Assembly (NCBI GenBank): GCA_009773565.1
Contig: WSXY01000006.1
Coordinates: forward strand, 1-64,000
Source: Actinomycetota bacterium
GTDB lineage: Bacteria > Actinomycetota > Coriobacteriia > Anaerosomatales > Anaerosomataceae
Reading direction: 5' to 3'
Length of the DNA: 64,000 nucleotides
Shown: one piece after another, positions 45,675-55,322 of the stretch
How positions within the stretch are numbered: position 1 is the stretch's first letter
Layout: every line of letters starts with the position of its first letter
Program-made: the position numbers and the translations under genes
The notes under the pieces: generated by a model
The model's input: only the letters and a program-made list of their open reading frames with translations
Told to the model about the DNA's origin: nothing
The model's database searches: none

Positions 45675-46409
45675 CTACTTGAGCTTGTCGAGCGCCTTTG
45701 TGAGCTGCGCCTCGGTGACCTCGCCAACGATCTGATCGCTCGTGCTGCCGTCGGTATTCACAAACACGAACGTCGGCACGAACTGCGCACCGAACTGCTG
45801 CGCAAGCTGAGCGCCTTCCTTGCTCTTCTCGACGTCATAGAGCAGGAATGCGACTTTGCCCTCGTACTGCTTCTTCAGCCCGTCGACCACGGGCTTCATC
45901 GTTTTGCACGATGGTCACCAATCGGTGTAGAACTCGTACATGATCGGCAGACCGCCAGCCGCAGCGTTGATTCCTCCGCCTGCAGCAACCGCACCCCCCG
46001 GAGCAGTGGTGACCTCGCCGTCCCAGGCCACGATGCCCTGCGTCAGGTTGTAAACCGTCTTGAAACCGGCGCCCGTGAGAATCGTCATCGCCTCGGCCGA
46101 GCGCGCCCCCGTTGCGCAGTACACGAGCACGGGCTTCGCGGGATCCCACGCGGTGAGCGCAGTCGGGAGCTGGTCCAGTGGGACGTTTTCGGCTCCGCGC
46201 ACGTGGCCCGCATCAAACTCCGAGGGAGTTCGCACATCGACGAAACGCACGCCCTTGTCGGCGAGCGCCTTGGCGGTCTTGTTATCAACGTTGCCTGCGG
46301 TCGGCATGGCGCTGTTGCAGCCAGTCATCGTAAGCACTCCGACAACTGCGACAGCAGCTAGAACAAATGTTAGCCAGCGGCTCACTGATACTGCGGTGCG
46401 TCGGTCCAT
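45675..46409 (-). CDS. Predicted selenoprotein: rhodanese-thioredoxin fusion lipoprotein (in-frame UGA as Sec)
   Basis: A 244-codon frame interrupted only by TGA at 45917-45915 (codon 165). A lipoprotein signal (residues 1-31, lipobox TMTGC) precedes a rhodanese domain (VRFVDVRTPSEFDAGHVRGA, active-site loop VYCATGARS with Cys). After a Gly/Ala linker comes a thioredoxin domain: YEFYTDW-UGA-PSCKTMKPVVDGLKKQY, then the cis-Pro VPTFVF. The UGA falls exactly at the first Cys of the thioredoxin WCxxC motif, the classical Sec position, and the frame continues to a complete fold. The protein is probably an exported sulfur or disulfide reductase. Alternatives are a sequencing error or a decayed gene. 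GGGAGGA precedes ATG 46409. Confidence 0.82.
45878..45894 (-). promoter_or_regulatory. SECIS-like hairpin downstream of the UGA
   Basis: On the mRNA strand GCCCGT and ACGGGC form a six-base stem with loop GGUCG; the loop begins 27 bases after the UGA, within the usual bacterial range. A second small hairpin (45897-45913) lies between. Confidence 0.6.
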
Positions 46410-46429
46410 CGTTCCTCCCTGGAGGTGAT

Positions 46430-46458
46430 GATATACCCTGGGTGGTATTCTACAGCAA
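46430..46458 (-). promoter_or_regulatory. Promoter of the rhodanese-thioredoxin gene
   Basis: TTGCTG (46458-46453) and TATATC (46435-46430) on the minus strand with a 17-base spacer; start about 46423, 14 bases before the ATG and over the Shine-Dalgarno region. Confidence 0.6.
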
Positions 46459-46568
46459 GCCGCGTGCCGCGTCGGGGACCGTCACCCGGGGTCATTCCGT
46501 GGCACAATGGTGCGGGAATCCCCTGGTGGCTCTTGTCGACCGGGAGCCGACGGACTGAAAGCGTGAAG

Positions 46569-49500
46569 ATGGCCCGAGCGGGAGATGTAGAGCACTGGAG
46601 CATGCCGCCGGGAGACGAGCCCCTGCGGACGGAACTTCTCGGCTCAGAGCGTCTCTCGGAAGCCGCGCGCGGTCTTGCGTCCGGGCAGCAGTGGACCGCC
46701 GCCGAGTCTTTGCGAGCGACCCCCTTGCTCTCGCTCCTCGAGCGTGCAGAAGAGTCGCTTCACGCGGTGTACAACCACCTTGCGATCGCGGCACGCGACC
46801 AGATACCTGTATCTGTCTCGGCGGAGTGGCTTCTCGACAACTTCTACATGGTGGAAGAGCAGATTCGCACCGTCAGAGACGACCTGCCCGACGACTACGG
46901 CACCGAGCTGCCCCGACTGACAGCGGGCGCACTCCGGGACTTCCCGCGCGTGTTCGAGGCGGTCGCCCTTCTCGTCGCATCCACCGACGCGCGCCTCGAC
47001 CGCGAGCACCTTGTGCGGTTCGTGACTGCGTTCCAGGATGTCTCGCCGCTCACCATCGGCGAGGTCTGGGCCGTTCCGATCATGCTCCGTGTCTGCCTTG
47101 TTGAGAGCCTGCGGCGCGTCGGTCTGCGGGTTCTCGCCTCGCACGACGCGGGAGTCGAAGCCGACGCGTGGGCGAACCGCATTCTTGCGGCCGCGCAGCA
47201 AACGCCAGCTACCGTCGCGGGGCTCGTCCGCGATTTGGAACGCTCGCAGCGTGACGCTCCCGGGGCGTTCCTCATCCGGCTGCTCCACCGTCTCCAGGAC
47301 CAGGATCCGGCAGTCGAGTCGACGGTCGCCTGGATCGAACGCACCCTTGCGGGGCGCGGAGCGACCTTCCAGCGGTTGACGCTTACTGAACACCAGGAAC
47401 AGGCCGTCGACCAGGTCTCCGTCGCGAACGCGATCACCAGCATCCGGTTCCTTGGCGCACTCGAATGGCGTGAGTTCTTCGAGGAGTGCTCGCTTGTCGA
47501 GCACGTGCTGCGAGAAGACCCTGCAGGTGTGTACTCCCGCATGGACTTCGTGTCACGCGACCGATACCGCCACGCCATCGAGGAGCTTGCGGACCGGAGC
47601 GACCTGTCGGAGATTGGCGTCGCCGAAGCGGTCATGAGTCACGCGCTCGAAGCGCTTCGACGCGACGCTTCTGACCCCATCGGCGGCCACGTCGGTCAGT
47701 ACCTCATCAGCAGCGGACGGTACCGTCTCGAGAAGAGCATCGGCTACCGCCCTCGCGCGCGCGAACTCGCCTACCGCGGGCCGCTCGCCAGCAAAGGCCT
47801 CATCTACTGGGGGCTTCTCGGAACCATTACCGCCTTGCTCGCGCTCGGCCTTGGGGCGTATCTGACGGGACGCGGCGTTTCTGCGGGCTGGATCATCGCG
47901 CTCATGATGCTCTCACTCGTACCGCTCTCCGACCTGGCGATCAACGTCGTCAACCGCGTCGCGGCGTCGGTCTGGCCAGCGCGCATGCTGCCTAAGCTCG
48001 ACTACCGCAAGCCCGTGGCAGCCGCGCATCGTACGATGGTCGCGATCCCGGCGCTGCTCACCTCGGCGAGCGGGACTCAGGCGATCATCGACAACCTCGA
48101 GATCGCCTACCTCGCGAACCGCGACCAAAACGTGATCTTCGGCCTCGTCGGCGACCTGCGCGGCGGTGCGGATGAGGTGCAGCCCGGTGACGCCGCGGTC
48201 ATCGACGCGGCACGGAGCGGAATCGCCGCACTCAACGAAACCTACGGCGAGAACGGGTGCGGCCCCTTCCACCTCTTCGTCCGTGCACGCCGGTACAACA
48301 AAGTGGATAACGTCTGGATGGGCTGGGAGCGTAAGCGGGGGGCGCTGCACGAGTTCAGCCAGCTCCTCCGGGGCGCTCCCGACACGAGCTTCTCCGTGCG
48401 AGAGGGTGACGCCGCGGCACTGCCGGAGGTGACGTTCGTCATCACGCTCGATGCCGACACAGTGTTGCCTCGCGACGCGGCCCGCAAGCTCATCTCGACG
48501 ATCGCGCACCCGCTCAACCGCGCGCAACTTGATGCGTCGAAGCGCCGGGTCGTCCGGGGCTACGGGCTTGTCCAGCCGCGCGTGGGCATGTCGCTTGAGG
48601 GCGCCGAGCGTTCCCCGTTCGCGTGGCTCTACTCGGGCGTGACCGGCGTCGACCCGTATGCAGGCGCCGTCTCCGACACCTACCAGGACGTCTTCGGCGA
48701 AGGCTCTTTCACCGGAAAGGGCATCTTCGAGGTCGATGTCATGAACGCCGTGCTCGAGAACCGGTTCCCCGAGAACACGCTCCTCAGCCATGACTTGCTT
48801 GAGGGATGCTACCTGCGAACGGCGCTCGCAAGCGATGTTGAGGTGCTTGACGATCAACCCGCTAGCTACGTCTCGCATAGCGCGCGCCTACATCGCTGGG
48901 TGCGCGGCGACTGGCAAACGCTCCCCTGGCTTGGCTTCACGGTCCCGACTCCGAACGGGCGCGAGCGCAATCCCCTCTCGGCGATCAACCGCTGGAAGAT
49001 CATCGACAACCTGCGCAGGAGCGTTCTGGCACCGGCGATGATGCTCTTCGCGGGCGCCGGCTGGTTTGTGCTACCGGGCCGTGACTGGGTGTGGCTTGCC
49101 GCCGTCTTCGCGATTGTGCTCTTCCCGGTCTATTTCAGCATCGCTGACTCGCTACTCTTCCGACCGCGCGGCGTCGACGTGCGCGGCGACACGCACTCGA
49201 TCGTAAGCGACTTCTGGCGCGACTCCGCACGTGCGCTGCTCAGTCTCTCGGTGCTGCCGCACCAGGCCGCGGTCATGCTCGACGCCATCATCCGGGCCCT
49301 CTGGCGGATGCTCTTCTCGCATCACAACATGCTTGAATGGGAGACTGCGGCCGAGGTGGAGCGCCGCCTCGGTTCCACTTCCGCCGGCTTCCTTCGCCGT
49401 ATGTGGACAGGCGAGCTGGTTGTGGCCACGATTGCCCTTCCTGCGGCAATCACGGACCCCGCTTCGCTTGTGTCGGCGGCGCCGCTTCTGCTGGCCTGGG

Positions 49501-52500
49501 TCCTGGCCCCGTACGCCGCCTGGCGCGTCAGCGTTCTGACGCCACACGAGCCGCCCGTCATTTCCGCGGCCGACACGGCGGCGCTGCGCCGGATCGCGCG
49601 CAAGACCTGGCGCTTCTTCGAGACATTTGTGACCGTCGGCGATCACTGGCTCGCACCGGACAACTTCCAAGAAGACCCCAAGGGCGTCGTCGCGCACCGG
49701 ACATCACCAACGAACATCGGGCTCCAGCTCATCTCGGCGCTCACTGCGTATGACCTCGGTTATATCAGCGTGAGCGGCCTTGTCGAGCGCGAGTCGAGAA
49801 CGCTTTCGACGATGGCCGGCATGGAGCGGTTCCGCGGCCACTTCTTCAACTGGTACGACACCGAGACCCTGCAGCCGCTGCGCCCCGGATACCTGTCGAC
49901 GGTCGATAGCGGCAACCTGGCAGGGCATCTGATCGTGCTGCGCACGGGCCTGACCGAGGTGGCGGAACGGCCGCTGATTGGCCCGCAGGTCCTCAACGGG
50001 CTCGCCGACACTGTGCGCACCGCACTTGAGGATCTCCTCGGACAACGCGACCGGGTCGGCCCGGGAGCCGTGGCAACCGAGCTGCGAACCTCGCTTGAAG
50101 AACTCCTGCGACGCATTCGACTCGACTCGGCGCCGTCGGACCTCGGCGAGTGGCACGTGCTGTTGACCGGTCTTGCAGCGGTGACCGACACGCTCCCCGC
50201 TCGCCTCTCTACCCTCACCGGCGAAGTCGACAGCCTCGAGGTGATTCGTTCGGCGGTCGATGCTGTGCGCCGGGACCTCAACGGACACCTGAGCGATCTG
50301 GAGACCTACACGCCCTGGGCCCGGCTCATCAGCACCATCCCGCCCGCGCTTCGTGAGGGCGAAACGGCGGATCTTCTCGCACCGATGACACGCAATGTCC
50401 CAAGCCTCGTCGGCCTCGCAGAAGGGCTCGATCCCGCCCTGGGTGAACTTACCCGCATCGCATCTGGCGATGACGCCGTAGCCGCCGCCTGGGCGCTCAA
50501 GCTGGCCGACTCGCTGCGCGAACGCCGCACTGCATGCGTCAATCTCCTCGCGGAGTTGCGTCTCGACGCGGAGATGGCGCGCGAGATGTGGGAGAAGACC
50601 GACTTCCGCATGCTGTTCGACAGCAGCCGCATGGTGTTCTCAATCGGCTTCAATACCGCCGAGGGGCGCCTCGACAACTCGTTCTACGACATGCTCGCCT
50701 CGGAATGCCGCCTCGCAAGCTACGTCGCGATCGCGAAAGGCGACGTTCCTCAAGAGCATTGGTTCCGGCTTGGCCGTGGCATCACGAAGACCGATGGCGG
50801 TCGGGCGCTCGTCTCGTGGAGCGCGAGCATGTTCGAGTACCTCATGCCGCTTCTCGTGATGAAGACGTGGCCGGGAACGCTGCTCGATCAGACATACAGA
50901 AGCGTGGTGAAGCGGCAGATTCAGTACGGTCGCCAGCGCGGCGTTGCGTGGGGCGTTTCGGAGTCGGCGTTCAACGCCAAGGATGTCGAGCTCACGTATC
51001 AGTATCAGGCCTTTGGAGTGCCGGGCCTCGGCCTCAAGCGAGGACTGTCCGAAGACGTCGTCGTCGCGCCGTACGCAAGCGTGCTCGCGCTGCCGGTGAA
51101 TACCCGCGCTGCACTCGACAACCTGGATGCCCTCTCGAGGCTGGGCGCCGAGGGTCGTTACGGCTACTTCGAAGCGGTCGACTACACCCCCGGCCGCGTT
51201 CCTGCCGGAAAGGAGCGCGCCATTGTAAAGGCGTACATGGCGCATCACCAGGGAATGAGCCTCGTTGCCATCGGCAATATGCTCACGCATGACCACATGC
51301 AGGAGCGCTTCCACGCCGATCCGAGCATGCACGCTGCCGAACTCCTGCTCCAGGAGCGCGTCCCGCGTCGCATCCAACTTGCGCAGCCGCACGTCGAAGA
51401 GGTTGCTTTCATACGATCGGTCCGCGAGATACAAACGCCGCTCCAGCGTTCGTATCCGCTTGCAGGAACACCGGTACCCTCGACACACTTCCTCAGCAAC
51501 GGGTCATACTCGGTCATGGTCACCAACGGTGGCGGCGGATACAGCCGCTGGCGCGACGACACGGTGACCCGCTATCGCGAAGACGTGACCCGCGACAACT
51601 GGGGAATGTTCTTCTACCTGAAAGACGTCGAAAACGGCGCCGTGTGGTCGGCGGCCTTCCAGCCTTCGCTCGCCGAACCCGACGAATACCATGTCACCTT
51701 CTCGGCGGATAAGGCTGAGTACCGACGCATCGACGGCGATGTCGAGACGCACACCGAGGTCGTCGTATCGCCGGCAGATGACGTCGAGGTACGCCGCATC
51801 ACCGTCACGAACCGACGCCGCGAACCGCTGCTGCTCGAGGTCACGTCGTACTTCGAGGTGACGCTCGCCGAGCGAGGCGCGGATCACGCCCACAAGGCGT
51901 TTAGCAACCTCTTCATGGAGACCGAGGCTGTTCCGGAGTTCGACGCGCTGCTGTTCAGCCGCCGCCCGCGATCGGCACATGAAGAGCGGCCGTGGGGCGT
52001 GCACGCCCTCGCATGCGACCTCGGCGAGAAGTGCAACTGGACGTACGAGACCGACCGCGAGGCGTTCCTCGGCAGGCTCCACACGCCGACCGACCCGCAT
52101 GCGATTGCCGGCGGCGGACGACTCACGGGGACCGTCGGCGCGGTCATCGACCCGATCTGCTCGATCCGCCAGACGCTCACGATCGAGCCCGGCGCTACGG
52201 CGCGCCTCGCGTTCGCGACAGGAGTGGCCGAGACGCGCGAAGGTGCGCTCGCACTTGCGGAGCGCTACCACGACATCCGGGCCGCGCAGCGCGCGCTCGA
52301 TCTCGCATGGTCCACCAGCCAGATCGAACTCCGGGACCTCGGCATCACGCCCGAGGAGGCCGTCGTCTTCCAGCGCCTCGCGTCCCGCCTGCTCCTGACC
52401 GACCCGCGCTCCCGCCTCAAGGTGCTCACTGCGGTCGAGAACCGCTCGCCGATGTCGGGGCTGTGGTCGATCGGCATCTCCGGCGACGACCCGATCCTCC

Positions 52501-55322
52501 TCGTGAAGATCGAGCGACTTGAGGAGACTCCCCTTGTACGGCAGGCCCTCCTCGCGCACCAGTACTGGCGCTCGAAAGGCTTCGAGTGCGACCTCGTCAT
52601 CCTCAACACGAAGCCGAGTGCGTACTCGTCGGAGCTTGACGGACGACTCCGGATGCTGCTCAGGACCGGCCACGCGCTCGAGCTGCAGGATAGGCCCCGC
52701 GGCGTACACCTGCGCGCTGCCGACCAGATGCCGGCCGAGGTCGCCAACCTGCTCGACAGCGTCGCGCGAGCAGTCCTCACGGGCGATAGCGGTCCGATCG
52801 GTCTCCAGCTCAACCTCCGGGCTGTACACGCTGCGCTCCCGGATCCGCTCACGCCACGCGCCGCACCCGTCGATGACCCGGCGCCTCTGTTCGAGCGCCC
52901 CGTGCTCGAGAACGACAACGGCTACGGCGGCTTCGATCCGGCAACCGGCGAGTACGTCATCATCCTCGAAGGCGCGCGGACAACACCCGCACCATGGGTG
53001 AACGTCCTGGCGAATCCGACGTTCGGTGCTCTCGTCTCGGAGGCCGGAATCGGCTGCACCTGGGCGCAGAACAGTCACGAGAACCGCATCACCACCTGGA
53101 ACAACGACCCGGTGAGCGACGGAACCGGCGAGGTCTTCTACGTCCGAGACGAGGAGACCGGCGAGTTCTGGAGTCCGACGCCGCTGCCGGTTCGCTCGAC
53201 CGAGCCCTATACTATTCGCCACGGGCACGGGTACACGCGATTCGAGCACACGTCACACGGCATCTCGCATGAACTCGACTGGTTTGTGGCAGCTGCGGAT
53301 CCGGTTCGTGTCGTGCAGATGCGCCTCACCAACAACTCCGACCGTGTGCGTCACCTCTCAATCACGCACTTCATCGAGTGGGCGCTCGGCGATTCGCGCA
53401 GCCGCGCCCAGCAGCGCGTCGTCACGTGGTGGGATGATGACGCTCACATGCTCCTGGCACATAACTGGTTCAACCTGGACTTCCCGGGCCTGCCGGCGTT
53501 CCTCGCCTGCGATTGCGAGGCGGACTCCTACACGGCGAGCCGGACCGAGTTCATCGGCCGCAACGGCGACCCCCGCGACCCGGCGGCGATGCACCGACGG
53601 ACCCTCGGCGGCTCGACGGGACGCTTCATCGACAACTGCGGCGCAATCATGCGCAAGCTCACGCTTGAACCAGGAGTGAGCACGACTATCACCTTCCTTC
53701 TCGGTCAGACCGAAACAGTCGAGGAGGCGCACGATCTCGTGCGGCGATACCGGGAACCTGGCACCGCGACGACCGCACTTGCCGACGTGTGCGCCACGTG
53801 GGGCGGCATCCTCGGCGCAGTCGAGGTTTCCACGCCGGACGCAGCGCTGGACCGCATGATCAACGGGCAGGCGCTCCACCAGGCGCTCGCATGCCGCTTC
53901 TGGGGGCGCACGGCGACCTACCAGTCCTCCGGGGCGTTCGGCTTCCGCGACCAGCTACAGGATTGCCTCGCGCTCCTGTACACGCGCCAGGACCTCGTGC
54001 GCGAGCACATCATCGAGGCCGCCCGCCACCAGTTCCCCGAGGGTGACGTGCTCCACTGGTGGCAGCCGGTTTCCGGGCGCGGCGTTCGCACGCGATTTGC
54101 CGATGACCGCCTGTGGTTGCCGTTCGTCGTCGCCGAATACGTTCGCTCCACGGGAGACGCGACGGTCCTGGATGTCGAGGTCCCCTACCTTGAGGGGCCG
54201 ACCGTGCCCGATGACCGGGAGGACCTCTACTTGCAGGTGCAGCCGTCGCTACGCGTGGCGAGCGTCTACGAGCATTGCTGCGCAGCCATCGAGGTGAGCA
54301 GCGGGATCGGCGATCACGGCCTTCCGCTCATGGGCGGTGGCGACTGGAACGACGGCATGAATCGCGTTGGCATTGGCGGCAAGGGCGAAAGCGTCTGGAT
54401 GGCGTGGTTCCTCGACGTCGTCCTGCGCACGTTCGCGCCAATCGCGGACTCACGCGGAGAAGCCGCACTGGCCGAGACGTGCCGCGAACGTGCGGCCGCG
54501 TTTGTGGCGGCCATCGAGCGCGAGGCGTGGGACGGCGCGTGGTACCGGCGGGCGTTCTTCGACGACGGTACGCCGCTTGGGAGCAAGTTCTCCGAGGAGT
54601 GCAAGATCGACGCGATCGCGCAGGCATGGGCGACCATCTCGGGAAGCGGCGACCCTTCTCGCGCTCAGCGAGCTCTGGAGAGCGTCGAGGAGAAGCTGGT
54701 GCGGTGGGATGACGGGCTCGTCGCGCTCCTCGCCCCGCCATTCGACCACATGGCGCAGGATCCCGGCTACATCAAAGGCTACGTCCCAGGCGTTCGCGAG
54801 AACGGCGGCCAGTACACGCACGCGGCCGTATGGGTAGCGCTCGCGTACGCGCTCGTGGGCGACGGCGACGAGGCGGTCGCGCTCCTCGACCTCATCAACC
54901 CGATCAATCACGCGCTTGATGAAGCGTCGGCCGACAGATATCGCGTGGAGCCCTACGTCTTAGCCGCGGACGTCTACGCAGTAGAGCCGCACACCGGTCG
55001 CGGCGGGTGGACGTGGTACACGGGTTCAGCGAGTTGGTACTACCGCGTGGCCGTGCGCGACATACTCGGCTTGCACCTGGAGGCCGACGACGGGGTTCGT
55101 TACCTACGCGTCGACCCGTGCGTTCCCAAGTCATGGACGTCATATCGGATGACGTTCCGCGACGGAGCGACGACATACGAGATAGCGGTCGAGAATCCAC
55201 GAGGAACAAACCGCGGGGTCGAGCGCGTACTGGTCGATGGTGTAGCGCGAAACGACATGCGCGTTCCCCTACTCGGTGATGGCGGGTCACATGAGGTGCG
55301 CGTCACCCTGCTCGGCGGCTAG
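46569..55322 (+). CDS. Cyclic beta-1,2-glucan synthase-like giant glycosyltransferase/phosphorylase
   Basis: About 2,917 aa, a membrane enzyme of the NdvB/Cgs type that makes beta-1,2-glucan. The N-terminal part is soluble and helical; membrane helices lie near residues 410-455 and around 820-880. Between them is a GT84-type domain with LDADTVLPRDAARKL (metal-binding Asp near residue 627), HDLLEGCYLRTAL and HRWVRGDWQ. The middle has a glucoamylase-like domain (SWSASMFEYLMPLLVMKTW, MAHHQGMSLVAIGNML). The C-terminus holds two beta-sandwich domains and a GH94 phosphorylase domain with GGDWNDGMNRVG (near residue 2590), which sets ring or chain size in Cgs. The start is uncertain: ATG 46569, GTG 46563 or ATG 46602; none has a good Shine-Dalgarno. 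Confidence 0.88.
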   Translation: MARAGDVEHWSMPPGDEPLRTELLGSERLSEAARGLASGQQWTAAESLRATPLLSLLERAEESLHAVYNHLAIAARDQIPVSVSAEWLLDNFYMVEEQIRTVRDDLPDDYGTELPRLTAGALRDFPRVFEAVALLVASTDARLDREHLVRFVTAFQDVSPLTIGEVWAVPIMLRVCLVESLRRVGLRVLASHDAGVEADAWANRILAAAQQTPATVAGLVRDLERSQRDAPGAFLIRLLHRLQDQDPAVESTVAWIERTLAGRGATFQRLTLTEHQEQAVDQVSVANAITSIRFLGALEWREFFEECSLVEHVLREDPAGVYSRMDFVSRDRYRHAIEELADRSDLSEIGVAEAVMSHALEALRRDASDPIGGHVGQYLISSGRYRLEKSIGYRPRARELAYRGPLASKGLIYWGLLGTITALLALGLGAYLTGRGVSAGWIIALMMLSLVPLSDLAINVVNRVAASVWPARMLPKLDYRKPVAAAHRTMVAIPALLTSASGTQAIIDNLEIAYLANRDQNVIFGLVGDLRGGADEVQPGDAAVIDAARSGIAALNETYGENGCGPFHLFVRARRYNKVDNVWMGWERKRGALHEFSQLLRGAPDTSFSVREGDAAALPEVTFVITLDADTVLPRDAARKLISTIAHPLNRAQLDASKRRVVRGYGLVQPRVGMSLEGAERSPFAWLYSGVTGVDPYAGAVSDTYQDVFGEGSFTGKGIFEVDVMNAVLENRFPENTLLSHDLLEGCYLRTALASDVEVLDDQPASYVSHSARLHRWVRGDWQTLPWLGFTVPTPNGRERNPLSAINRWKIIDNLRRSVLAPAMMLFAGAGWFVLPGRDWVWLAAVFAIVLFPVYFSIADSLLFRPRGVDVRGDTHSIVSDFWRDSARALLSLSVLPHQAAVMLDAIIRALWRMLFSHHNMLEWETAAEVERRLGSTSAGFLRRMWTGELVVATIALPAAITDPASLVSAAPLLLAWVLAPYAAWRVSVLTPHEPPVISAADTAALRRIARKTWRFFETFVTVGDHWLAPDNFQEDPKGVVAHRTSPTNIGLQLISALTAYDLGYISVSGLVERESRTLSTMAGMERFRGHFFNWYDTETLQPLRPGYLSTVDSGNLAGHLIVLRTGLTEVAERPLIGPQVLNGLADTVRTALEDLLGQRDRVGPGAVATELRTSLEELLRRIRLDSAPSDLGEWHVLLTGLAAVTDTLPARLSTLTGEVDSLEVIRSAVDAVRRDLNGHLSDLETYTPWARLISTIPPALREGETADLLAPMTRNVPSLVGLAEGLDPALGELTRIASGDDAVAAAWALKLADSLRERRTACVNLLAELRLDAEMAREMWEKTDFRMLFDSSRMVFSIGFNTAEGRLDNSFYDMLASECRLASYVAIAKGDVPQEHWFRLGRGITKTDGGRALVSWSASMFEYLMPLLVMKTWPGTLLDQTYRSVVKRQIQYGRQRGVAWGVSESAFNAKDVELTYQYQAFGVPGLGLKRGLSEDVVVAPYASVLALPVNTRAALDNLDALSRLGAEGRYGYFEAVDYTPGRVPAGKERAIVKAYMAHHQGMSLVAIGNMLTHDHMQERFHADPSMHAAELLLQERVPRRIQLAQPHVEEVAFIRSVREIQTPLQRSYPLAGTPVPSTHFLSNGSYSVMVTNGGGGYSRWRDDTVTRYREDVTRDNWGMFFYLKDVENGAVWSAAFQPSLAEPDEYHVTFSADKAEYRRIDGDVETHTEVVVSPADDVEVRRITVTNRRREPLLLEVTSYFEVTLAERGADHAHKAFSNLFMETEAVPEFDALLFSRRPRSAHEERPWGVHALACDLGEKCNWTYETDREAFLGRLHTPTDPHAIAGGGRLTGTVGAVIDPICSIRQTLTIEPGATARLAFATGVAETREGALALAERYHDIRAAQRALDLAWSTSQIELRDLGITPEEAVVFQRLASRLLLTDPRSRLKVLTAVENRSPMSGLWSIGISGDDPILLVKIERLEETPLVRQALLAHQYWRSKGFECDLVILNTKPSAYSSELDGRLRMLLRTGHALELQDRPRGVHLRAADQMPAEVANLLDSVARAVLTGDSGPIGLQLNLRAVHAALPDPLTPRAAPVDDPAPLFERPVLENDNGYGGFDPATGEYVIILEGARTTPAPWVNVLANPTFGALVSEAGIGCTWAQNSHENRITTWNNDPVSDGTGEVFYVRDEETGEFWSPTPLPVRSTEPYTIRHGHGYTRFEHTSHGISHELDWFVAAADPVRVVQMRLTNNSDRVRHLSITHFIEWALGDSRSRAQQRVVTWWDDDAHMLLAHNWFNLDFPGLPAFLACDCEADSYTASRTEFIGRNGDPRDPAAMHRRTLGGSTGRFIDNCGAIMRKLTLEPGVSTTITFLLGQTETVEEAHDLVRRYREPGTATTALADVCATWGGILGAVEVSTPDAALDRMINGQALHQALACRFWGRTATYQSSGAFGFRDQLQDCLALLYTRQDLVREHIIEAARHQFPEGDVLHWWQPVSGRGVRTRFADDRLWLPFVVAEYVRSTGDATVLDVEVPYLEGPTVPDDREDLYLQVQPSLRVASVYEHCCAAIEVSSGIGDHGLPLMGGGDWNDGMNRVGIGGKGESVWMAWFLDVVLRTFAPIADSRGEAALAETCRERAAAFVAAIEREAWDGAWYRRAFFDDGTPLGSKFSEECKIDAIAQAWATISGSGDPSRAQRALESVEEKLVRWDDGLVALLAPPFDHMAQDPGYIKGYVPGVRENGGQYTHAAVWVALAYALVGDGDEAVALLDLINPINHALDEASADRYRVEPYVLAADVYAVEPHTGRGGWTWYTGSASWYYRVAVRDILGLHLEADDGVRYLRVDPCVPKSWTSYRMTFRDGATTYEIAVENPRGTNRGVERVLVDGVARNDMRVPLLGDGGSHEVRVTLLGG

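Follow-up and report, generated by a model that had tools for sequence, protein, structure and literature searches.

A predicted membrane-anchored rhodanese-selenothioredoxin fusion in one order of actinobacteria

A gene in the analysed window (a stretch of 64,000 nucleotides, positions 1 to 64,000 of contig WSXY01000006.1 in assembly GCA_009773565.1) appears to encode an extracytoplasmic selenoprotein anchored to the membrane, which joins a rhodanese to a thioredoxin with a U-P-S-C motif and probably acts as a sulfane-sulfur reductase. On sequence grounds, the in-frame UGA at codon 165 is almost certainly read as selenocysteine (Sec), and this reading passed every computational test made. The predicted fusion is kept throughout one order of actinobacteria and would represent a new and, as far as checked, undescribed selenoprotein architecture, the Sec counterpart of a fusion for which a Cys version is known too.

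The reading frame and its protein parts

The minus-strand frame between 46409 and 45675 runs through 164 codons to a UGA (45917-45915), continues for 79 codons and ends in a TAG (45677-45675). The first-pass annotation had described a rhodanese frame meeting a UGA at the first Cys of a thioredoxin WCxxC motif, which is exact for codon 165, and its reading YTDW-U-PSCK was recovered within EFYTDW-U-PSCKTMKP as the single internal UGA in 244 residues. The features of the gene are the following.

45675..46409, minus strand: complete coding sequence of the rhodanese-selenothioredoxin fusion, 244 residues with UGA 165 as predicted Sec and a TAG stop; 46 orthologues aligned
46414..46419, minus strand: Shine-Dalgarno sequence GGGAGG, four bases 5' of the ATG, read from the sequence
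46317..46409, minus strand: predicted signal peptide with lipobox LTMTG-C31, from the sequence and the alignment of relatives
46020..46274, minus strand: rhodanese domain, residues 46-130 (PF00581, E 5e-20; pLDDT mostly >90)
46116..46118, minus strand: rhodanese active-site Cys98 in the loop CATGARS, at least 90% conserved in 46 orthologues
45687..45944, minus strand: thioredoxin domain, residues 156-241 (PF00085, E 4e-15; Foldseek thioredoxins, E 8e-9)
45915..45917, minus strand: UGA codon 165, predicted Sec of W-U-P-S-C; UGA in 46/46 orthologues, Cys in Persicobacter full-length homologues
45906..45908, minus strand: resolving Cys168 of UxxC, invariant in 46 orthologues
45774..45776, minus strand: cis-Pro212 of the thioredoxin fold, invariant in 46 orthologues
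45877..45895, minus strand: predicted bacterial SECIS hairpin AGCCCGU-GGUCG-ACGGGCU, apical loop 45888-45884, from pairing, covariation, the recoding null and -12.0 kcal/mol

In a Pfam search of the read-through product, the rhodanese domain matched PF00581 with 72 bits and the thioredoxin domain matched PF00085 with 56.2 bits against a cut-off of 23.5, the two being connected by a short Gly/Ala-rich linker. The former shows the fold of a single-domain rhodanese together with an active-site loop that opens with the catalytic Cys (Cys98, CATGARS). The latter combines the thioredoxin fold, a CxxC-type motif and the cis-Pro, which lies in VPTFVF (residues 211-216), and PF00085 matches all 46 orthologues as well. 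The claim that the 79 codons after the UGA form a full thioredoxin fold with cis-Pro was thereby confirmed by both the reading frame and PF00085. The NCBIfam equivalog for thioredoxin, TIGR01068, was missed with 55.8 bits against a cut-off of 96.8, indicating a thioredoxin domain, yet no canonical TrxA.

The AlphaFold2 model contains two confident domains with most residues at pLDDT >90, while the linker and the relative placement of the domains are of low confidence (pTM 0.55). Foldseek matched thioredoxins and rhodaneses separately, with thioredoxins as the top matches (E 8e-9), and the best 60 solved-structure matches covered one domain apiece.

The N-terminus of the window protein carries the lipobox-like LTMTG-C, and its closest relatives have VVAGC, GLAGC or GLTGC at this place. 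This type is found in about 10 of the 46 relatives, the remainder having an N-terminal membrane helix that looks uncleaved. The earlier designation as a lipoprotein hence fits the predicted N-termini of the window's clade, whereas 'membrane-anchored' is the term that fits the whole group. At one locus (L040:2190-2277), repeated NTKA units stand at the N-terminus ahead of the membrane helix.

Selenocysteine at UGA 165

The alignment comprised 46 full-length fusion orthologues from many families of one order, with identity to the window protein down to 37%. Codon 165 is UGA in all 46 and Cys in none, Cys168, Pro212 and further fold residues are invariant, and the rhodanese Cys98 and UxxC are retained jointly across the set. 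One divergent relative (L081 of genome G029), bearing GAG at the aligned place, was excluded. Both the placement and the conservation of the UGA are far beyond chance. Full-length fusions on two plasmids of Persicobacter read ATWCGSCK and ATWCATCK, with the Cys aligned exactly to UGA 165, suggesting that Cys is the non-seleno counterpart, and Cys occupies the same position in the Cys thioredoxins L085, L090 and L091 and in the paralogue L083. Homologues had been expected to be non-random at codon 165, and they proved so, with UGA order-wide and Cys in the Persicobacter fusions and the divergent in-order paralogue.

Downstream of the UGA, the window contains a hairpin with a 7-bp stem and the loop GGUCG, with 26 nt from UGA to loop and an energy of -12.0 kcal/mol, which satisfies the published bSECIS model with its constraints as quoted in PMC13188914. 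Judged on the 19-nt hairpin, 67 of 68 loci conform to this model in loop and energy. The distance between hairpin and UGA is constant and indel-free in every sequence. Among 65 distinct sequences, pairing is maintained in 99.5% of cells, both members are altered in four of the six pairs, and covariation scores 0.347, compared with 0.133 in shuffles and at most 0.175 for slid partners. Because the hairpin RNA is also coding, a synonymous-recoding null was used, in which each sequence was recoded 1000 times with local codon usage: all six pairs are present in 63 of the 65 real sequences, whereas the recoded sets averaged 3.6 and never exceeded 10. Certain compensations alter amino acids on both sides, for instance from PVVDG to PLVEG. 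A genome-wide search for the exact SECIS pattern CCYGTGGTCGACRGG recovered the fusion gene only, and no other gene thus shares the hairpin letter for letter.

The genome of the window (2.27 Mb, 98.5% complete) was searched for selA, selB, selC and selD as the first-pass annotation had proposed, and all four are present. The tRNA-Sec scored 63 bits, above the cut-off, and was called by ARAGORN as tRNA-SeC with anticodon UCA (tca); selA (605 bits), selB (380 bits) and selD (371 bits) likewise exceeded their cut-offs, and the four genes are grouped within 14-26 kb of contig C16. A gene for a multihaem c-type cytochrome-like protein with many CxxCH motifs (L001:214-1401) adjoins the tRNA-Sec gene. 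As an in-genome Sec control, GRDA (PF04723) was uninformative, having no match in the genome and likewise none in the control set, and the UGA of SelD was taken instead. The SelD gene (L112, G000:C16:24695-25612), located near selA, selB and the tRNA-Sec gene, itself contains an in-frame UGA, placed as usual in GUxxK (GUAAKWGPGDL) and accompanied by a SECIS-like hairpin, and thus serves as an internal positive control that the genome uses Sec.

The sequence-level marks of a bacterial selenoprotein are accordingly present, namely a conserved in-frame UGA at a catalytic redox position, Cys homologues, a SECIS and selA/selB/selC/selD, and the Sec interpretation put forward in the first-pass annotation is supported. 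Counter-evidence comes from the relatives. A selB gene was detected in 45 of 61 relatives. A UGA gene of the fusion/Sec-thioredoxin family without any selB match was counted in 13 genomes; four of these 13 have selA, three of them cut by a contig end. Neither selA nor selB was detected in 9 of the 54 genomes carrying a UGA gene, and completeness does not exceed 86% in six of the nine. The missing genes may reflect assembly gaps, given that selA and selB lie side by side in the examined genomes, or recent losses of Sec decoding. Three exceptions are not easily dismissed: G013 (98% complete, 10 contigs) and G010 (96%), which carry fusions with UGA, and G025 (93% complete, 7% contaminated), which carries a Sec-thioredoxin with UGA, all with selA/selB undetected.

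Three other explanations of the UGA were weighed. Were UGA 165 a true stop, the product would be a rhodanese only, and the downstream frame a remnant or a separate gene. Standard gene calling would indeed stop at this codon and show the fusion as a truncated 164-residue rhodanese, and a downstream ATG (MKPVVDG) begins a 74-codon ORF. This explanation is exceedingly improbable, as the product of that ORF would be missing the WCxxC of its fold as well as the first strand, no other stop interrupts the frame in 46 orthologues with the resolving Cys and cis-Pro conserved, and both a conserved SECIS and the Sec machinery exist. A genome-wide reassignment of UGA to a different amino acid, for which nothing was found beyond the readthrough itself, is refuted by the use of UGA as a stop in this genome: several long genes of the window end in UGA, and the orthologues L019, L020 and L027 use UGA internally, as predicted Sec, and also as the final stop. 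A sequencing or assembly error, which like a frameshift had been considered unlikely from the start, is refuted too, because the identical UGA stands at this site in every orthologue, in dozens of separately assembled genomes.

Distribution and known relatives

Of 61 relatives sampled, 60 gave a domain-level match of some kind. When 298 genomes of the class were searched with a profile, 53 full-length fusions were recovered; each contained a single UGA, all came from the window's order, and solely separate rhodaneses and thioredoxins turned up elsewhere in the class. No full-length fusion beyond the order was added by 396 genomes sampled across the phylum, and neither the 298 class genomes nor the 396 phylum genomes yielded a full-length Cys fusion. 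G181 (L082:909-1676), from another family of the class, was rejected as a Cys-type fusion, being two adjacent genes, a rhodanese gene followed by a thioredoxin gene, in an unfused version of the pairing. L043/L066 (UBA3086) was rejected as a split gene, the break being NN in the assembly.

Short Sec-thioredoxins without a rhodanese (L062-L080) are found in the same order, with the same UGA site and SECIS position, and a thioredoxin-domain tree built on few columns placed them among the fusions. Two divergent paralogues have a rhodanese domain without the catalytic Cys: L083 (821-1663) has a Cys-type CDVC thioredoxin part, and L084 has lost both motifs.

Related selenoproteins are known. The 2026 inventory of prokaryotic selenoproteins includes Sec-thioredoxin, listed as experimentally verified, several Sec-rhodaneses and the two-Sec rhodanese/DsbD-like TsoB (PMC13188914). 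Sec-thioredoxin (Trx, PF00085, UxxC) shares with the fusion the thioredoxin fold, a Sec in first place, the resolving Cys and a bacterial SECIS. It is listed simply as a thioredoxin, whereas the window protein is predicted to be exported and membrane-anchored, with a rhodanese in front. TsoB (NF045694) is likewise a single selenoprotein that has a rhodanese together with a thioredoxin-like end, and the thioredoxin part of the fusion aligns to positions 470-551 of the 572 in its profile. However, TsoB has two Sec residues in UxxxxU over these 572 positions, in contrast to one Sec in UxxC over 244 residues, the fusion is too short for the DsbD-like membrane part of TsoB, and its score of 42.2 bits lies far under the cut-off of 805. 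The window protein fell under the cut-off of every NCBIfam family among the matches listed, as did the other fusion members examined. The rhodanese-like selenoproteins of forms 1-4 (PF00581/NF041203; UxxS, UxxG, CxU) also contain a rhodanese domain, but their Sec motif is listed under the rhodanese family, while the fusion keeps the rhodanese Cys and has its predicted Sec in the thioredoxin.

The Persicobacter proteins (L119 and L121, Bacteroidota) have the same order of parts as the fusion, a lipobox-like N-terminus, a rhodanese with active Cys and a thioredoxin. They differ in having Cys for Sec, in an identity of only ~27-29% and in belonging to a different phylum, and they indicate that the fusion architecture is not restricted to Sec. 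The single-domain rhodaneses PspE and GlpE of E. coli, of which PspE is periplasmic, have the rhodanese chemistry in common, but they are devoid of an attached reductase and require a separate acceptor, while the fusion carries its own thioredoxin domain. The first-pass annotation knew of no described example, which holds, as far as checked, for the fusion architecture itself, whereas the wider idea has precedents in Sec-thioredoxin and TsoB (PMC13188914). No rhodanese-selenothioredoxin with a single UxxC was found in the PMC13188914 inventory, nor any published description of the arrangement. A sulfurtransferase and a selenothioredoxin in one exported protein, order-wide, would add an architecture to the selenoproteins of PMC13188914.

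Proposed chemistry and genomic neighbourhood

It is proposed that SelB and tRNA-Sec would insert Sec at UGA 165, directed by the SECIS hairpin just downstream. Cys98 of the rhodanese would accept sulfane sulfur from thiosulfate, polysulfide or a persulfide to form a cysteine persulfide, which would be attacked by Sec165; Cys168 would then resolve the intermediate, sulfide would leave, and the Se-S bond would be re-reduced via a CcdA/DsbD-type membrane protein. The genome encodes four DsbD_TM-family membrane proteins as candidate re-reductants. The whole would be a self-contained sulfane-sulfur reductase on the cell exterior. Thioredoxins are able to serve as acceptors of rhodanese persulfides. 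Periplasmic PspE gives its sulfur to a dithiol acceptor with release of sulfide (PMC2593051). The specific chemistry, in which Sec165/Cys168 reduce the sulfur carried on Cys98 outside the membrane, is given an even chance of being correct.

The main competing proposal retains the Sec and regards the protein as a general extracytoplasmic disulfide reductase or isomerase, whose rhodanese binds or senses and passes no sulfur to Sec165. The rhodanese-less Sec-thioredoxins of the same order imply that a Sec-thioredoxin functions without a rhodanese, Tyr replaces the rhodanese Cys in one orthologue (L026), and the paralogue L083 has a Cys-less rhodanese fold beside a Cys thioredoxin. This proposal is tenable yet rather unlikely, since Cys98 is at least 90% conserved, the fusion is retained in most families of the order, Persicobacter has the equal pairing with Cys, and a rhodanese gene lies directly ahead of a thioredoxin gene in G181.

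UGA 165 might also act as a selenium-dependent switch, giving the fusion with selenium and a functional anchored rhodanese-only protein without it. The UGA lies just past the signal peptide and a complete rhodanese domain, so termination would leave a folded product, and no orthologue within the order shows a reversion to Cys; the same appearance is expected of any selenoprotein with a late Sec, and such a switch is improbable. That the protein is a selenium-gated enzyme, in which the selenium supply sets whether the surface carries the sulfurtransferase by itself, as a persulfide donor, or the whole sulfane-sulfur reductase, is similarly quite unlikely; if true, selenium status would govern extracytoplasmic sulfur chemistry.

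Sulfur or thiosulfate reduction has been reported for Anaerosoma tenue (OPB41 group; PMC9686372), to which the window's source is probably close. Should this metabolism extend to members of the order, the fusion would be a concrete candidate for dealing with sulfane sulfur at the membrane. Its neighbour is a glucan enzyme gene and not a set of sulfur-metabolism genes: in the window, and likewise in each of the 20 relatives examined (L092-L111), the fusion forms a divergent pair with a very large gene of the GH94/glucoamylase type (46425-55322 in the window, where the longest ORF has 2965 codons), and in about half of the relatives glnK or an amt-glnK pair is convergent on the other side. The synteny of fusion and GH94 gene is old and vertically kept, and leaves the sulfur chemistry unexplained. 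The rhodanese part of the fusion also matches the NCBIfam family rhoda_near_glyco (NF045521), below its cut-off.
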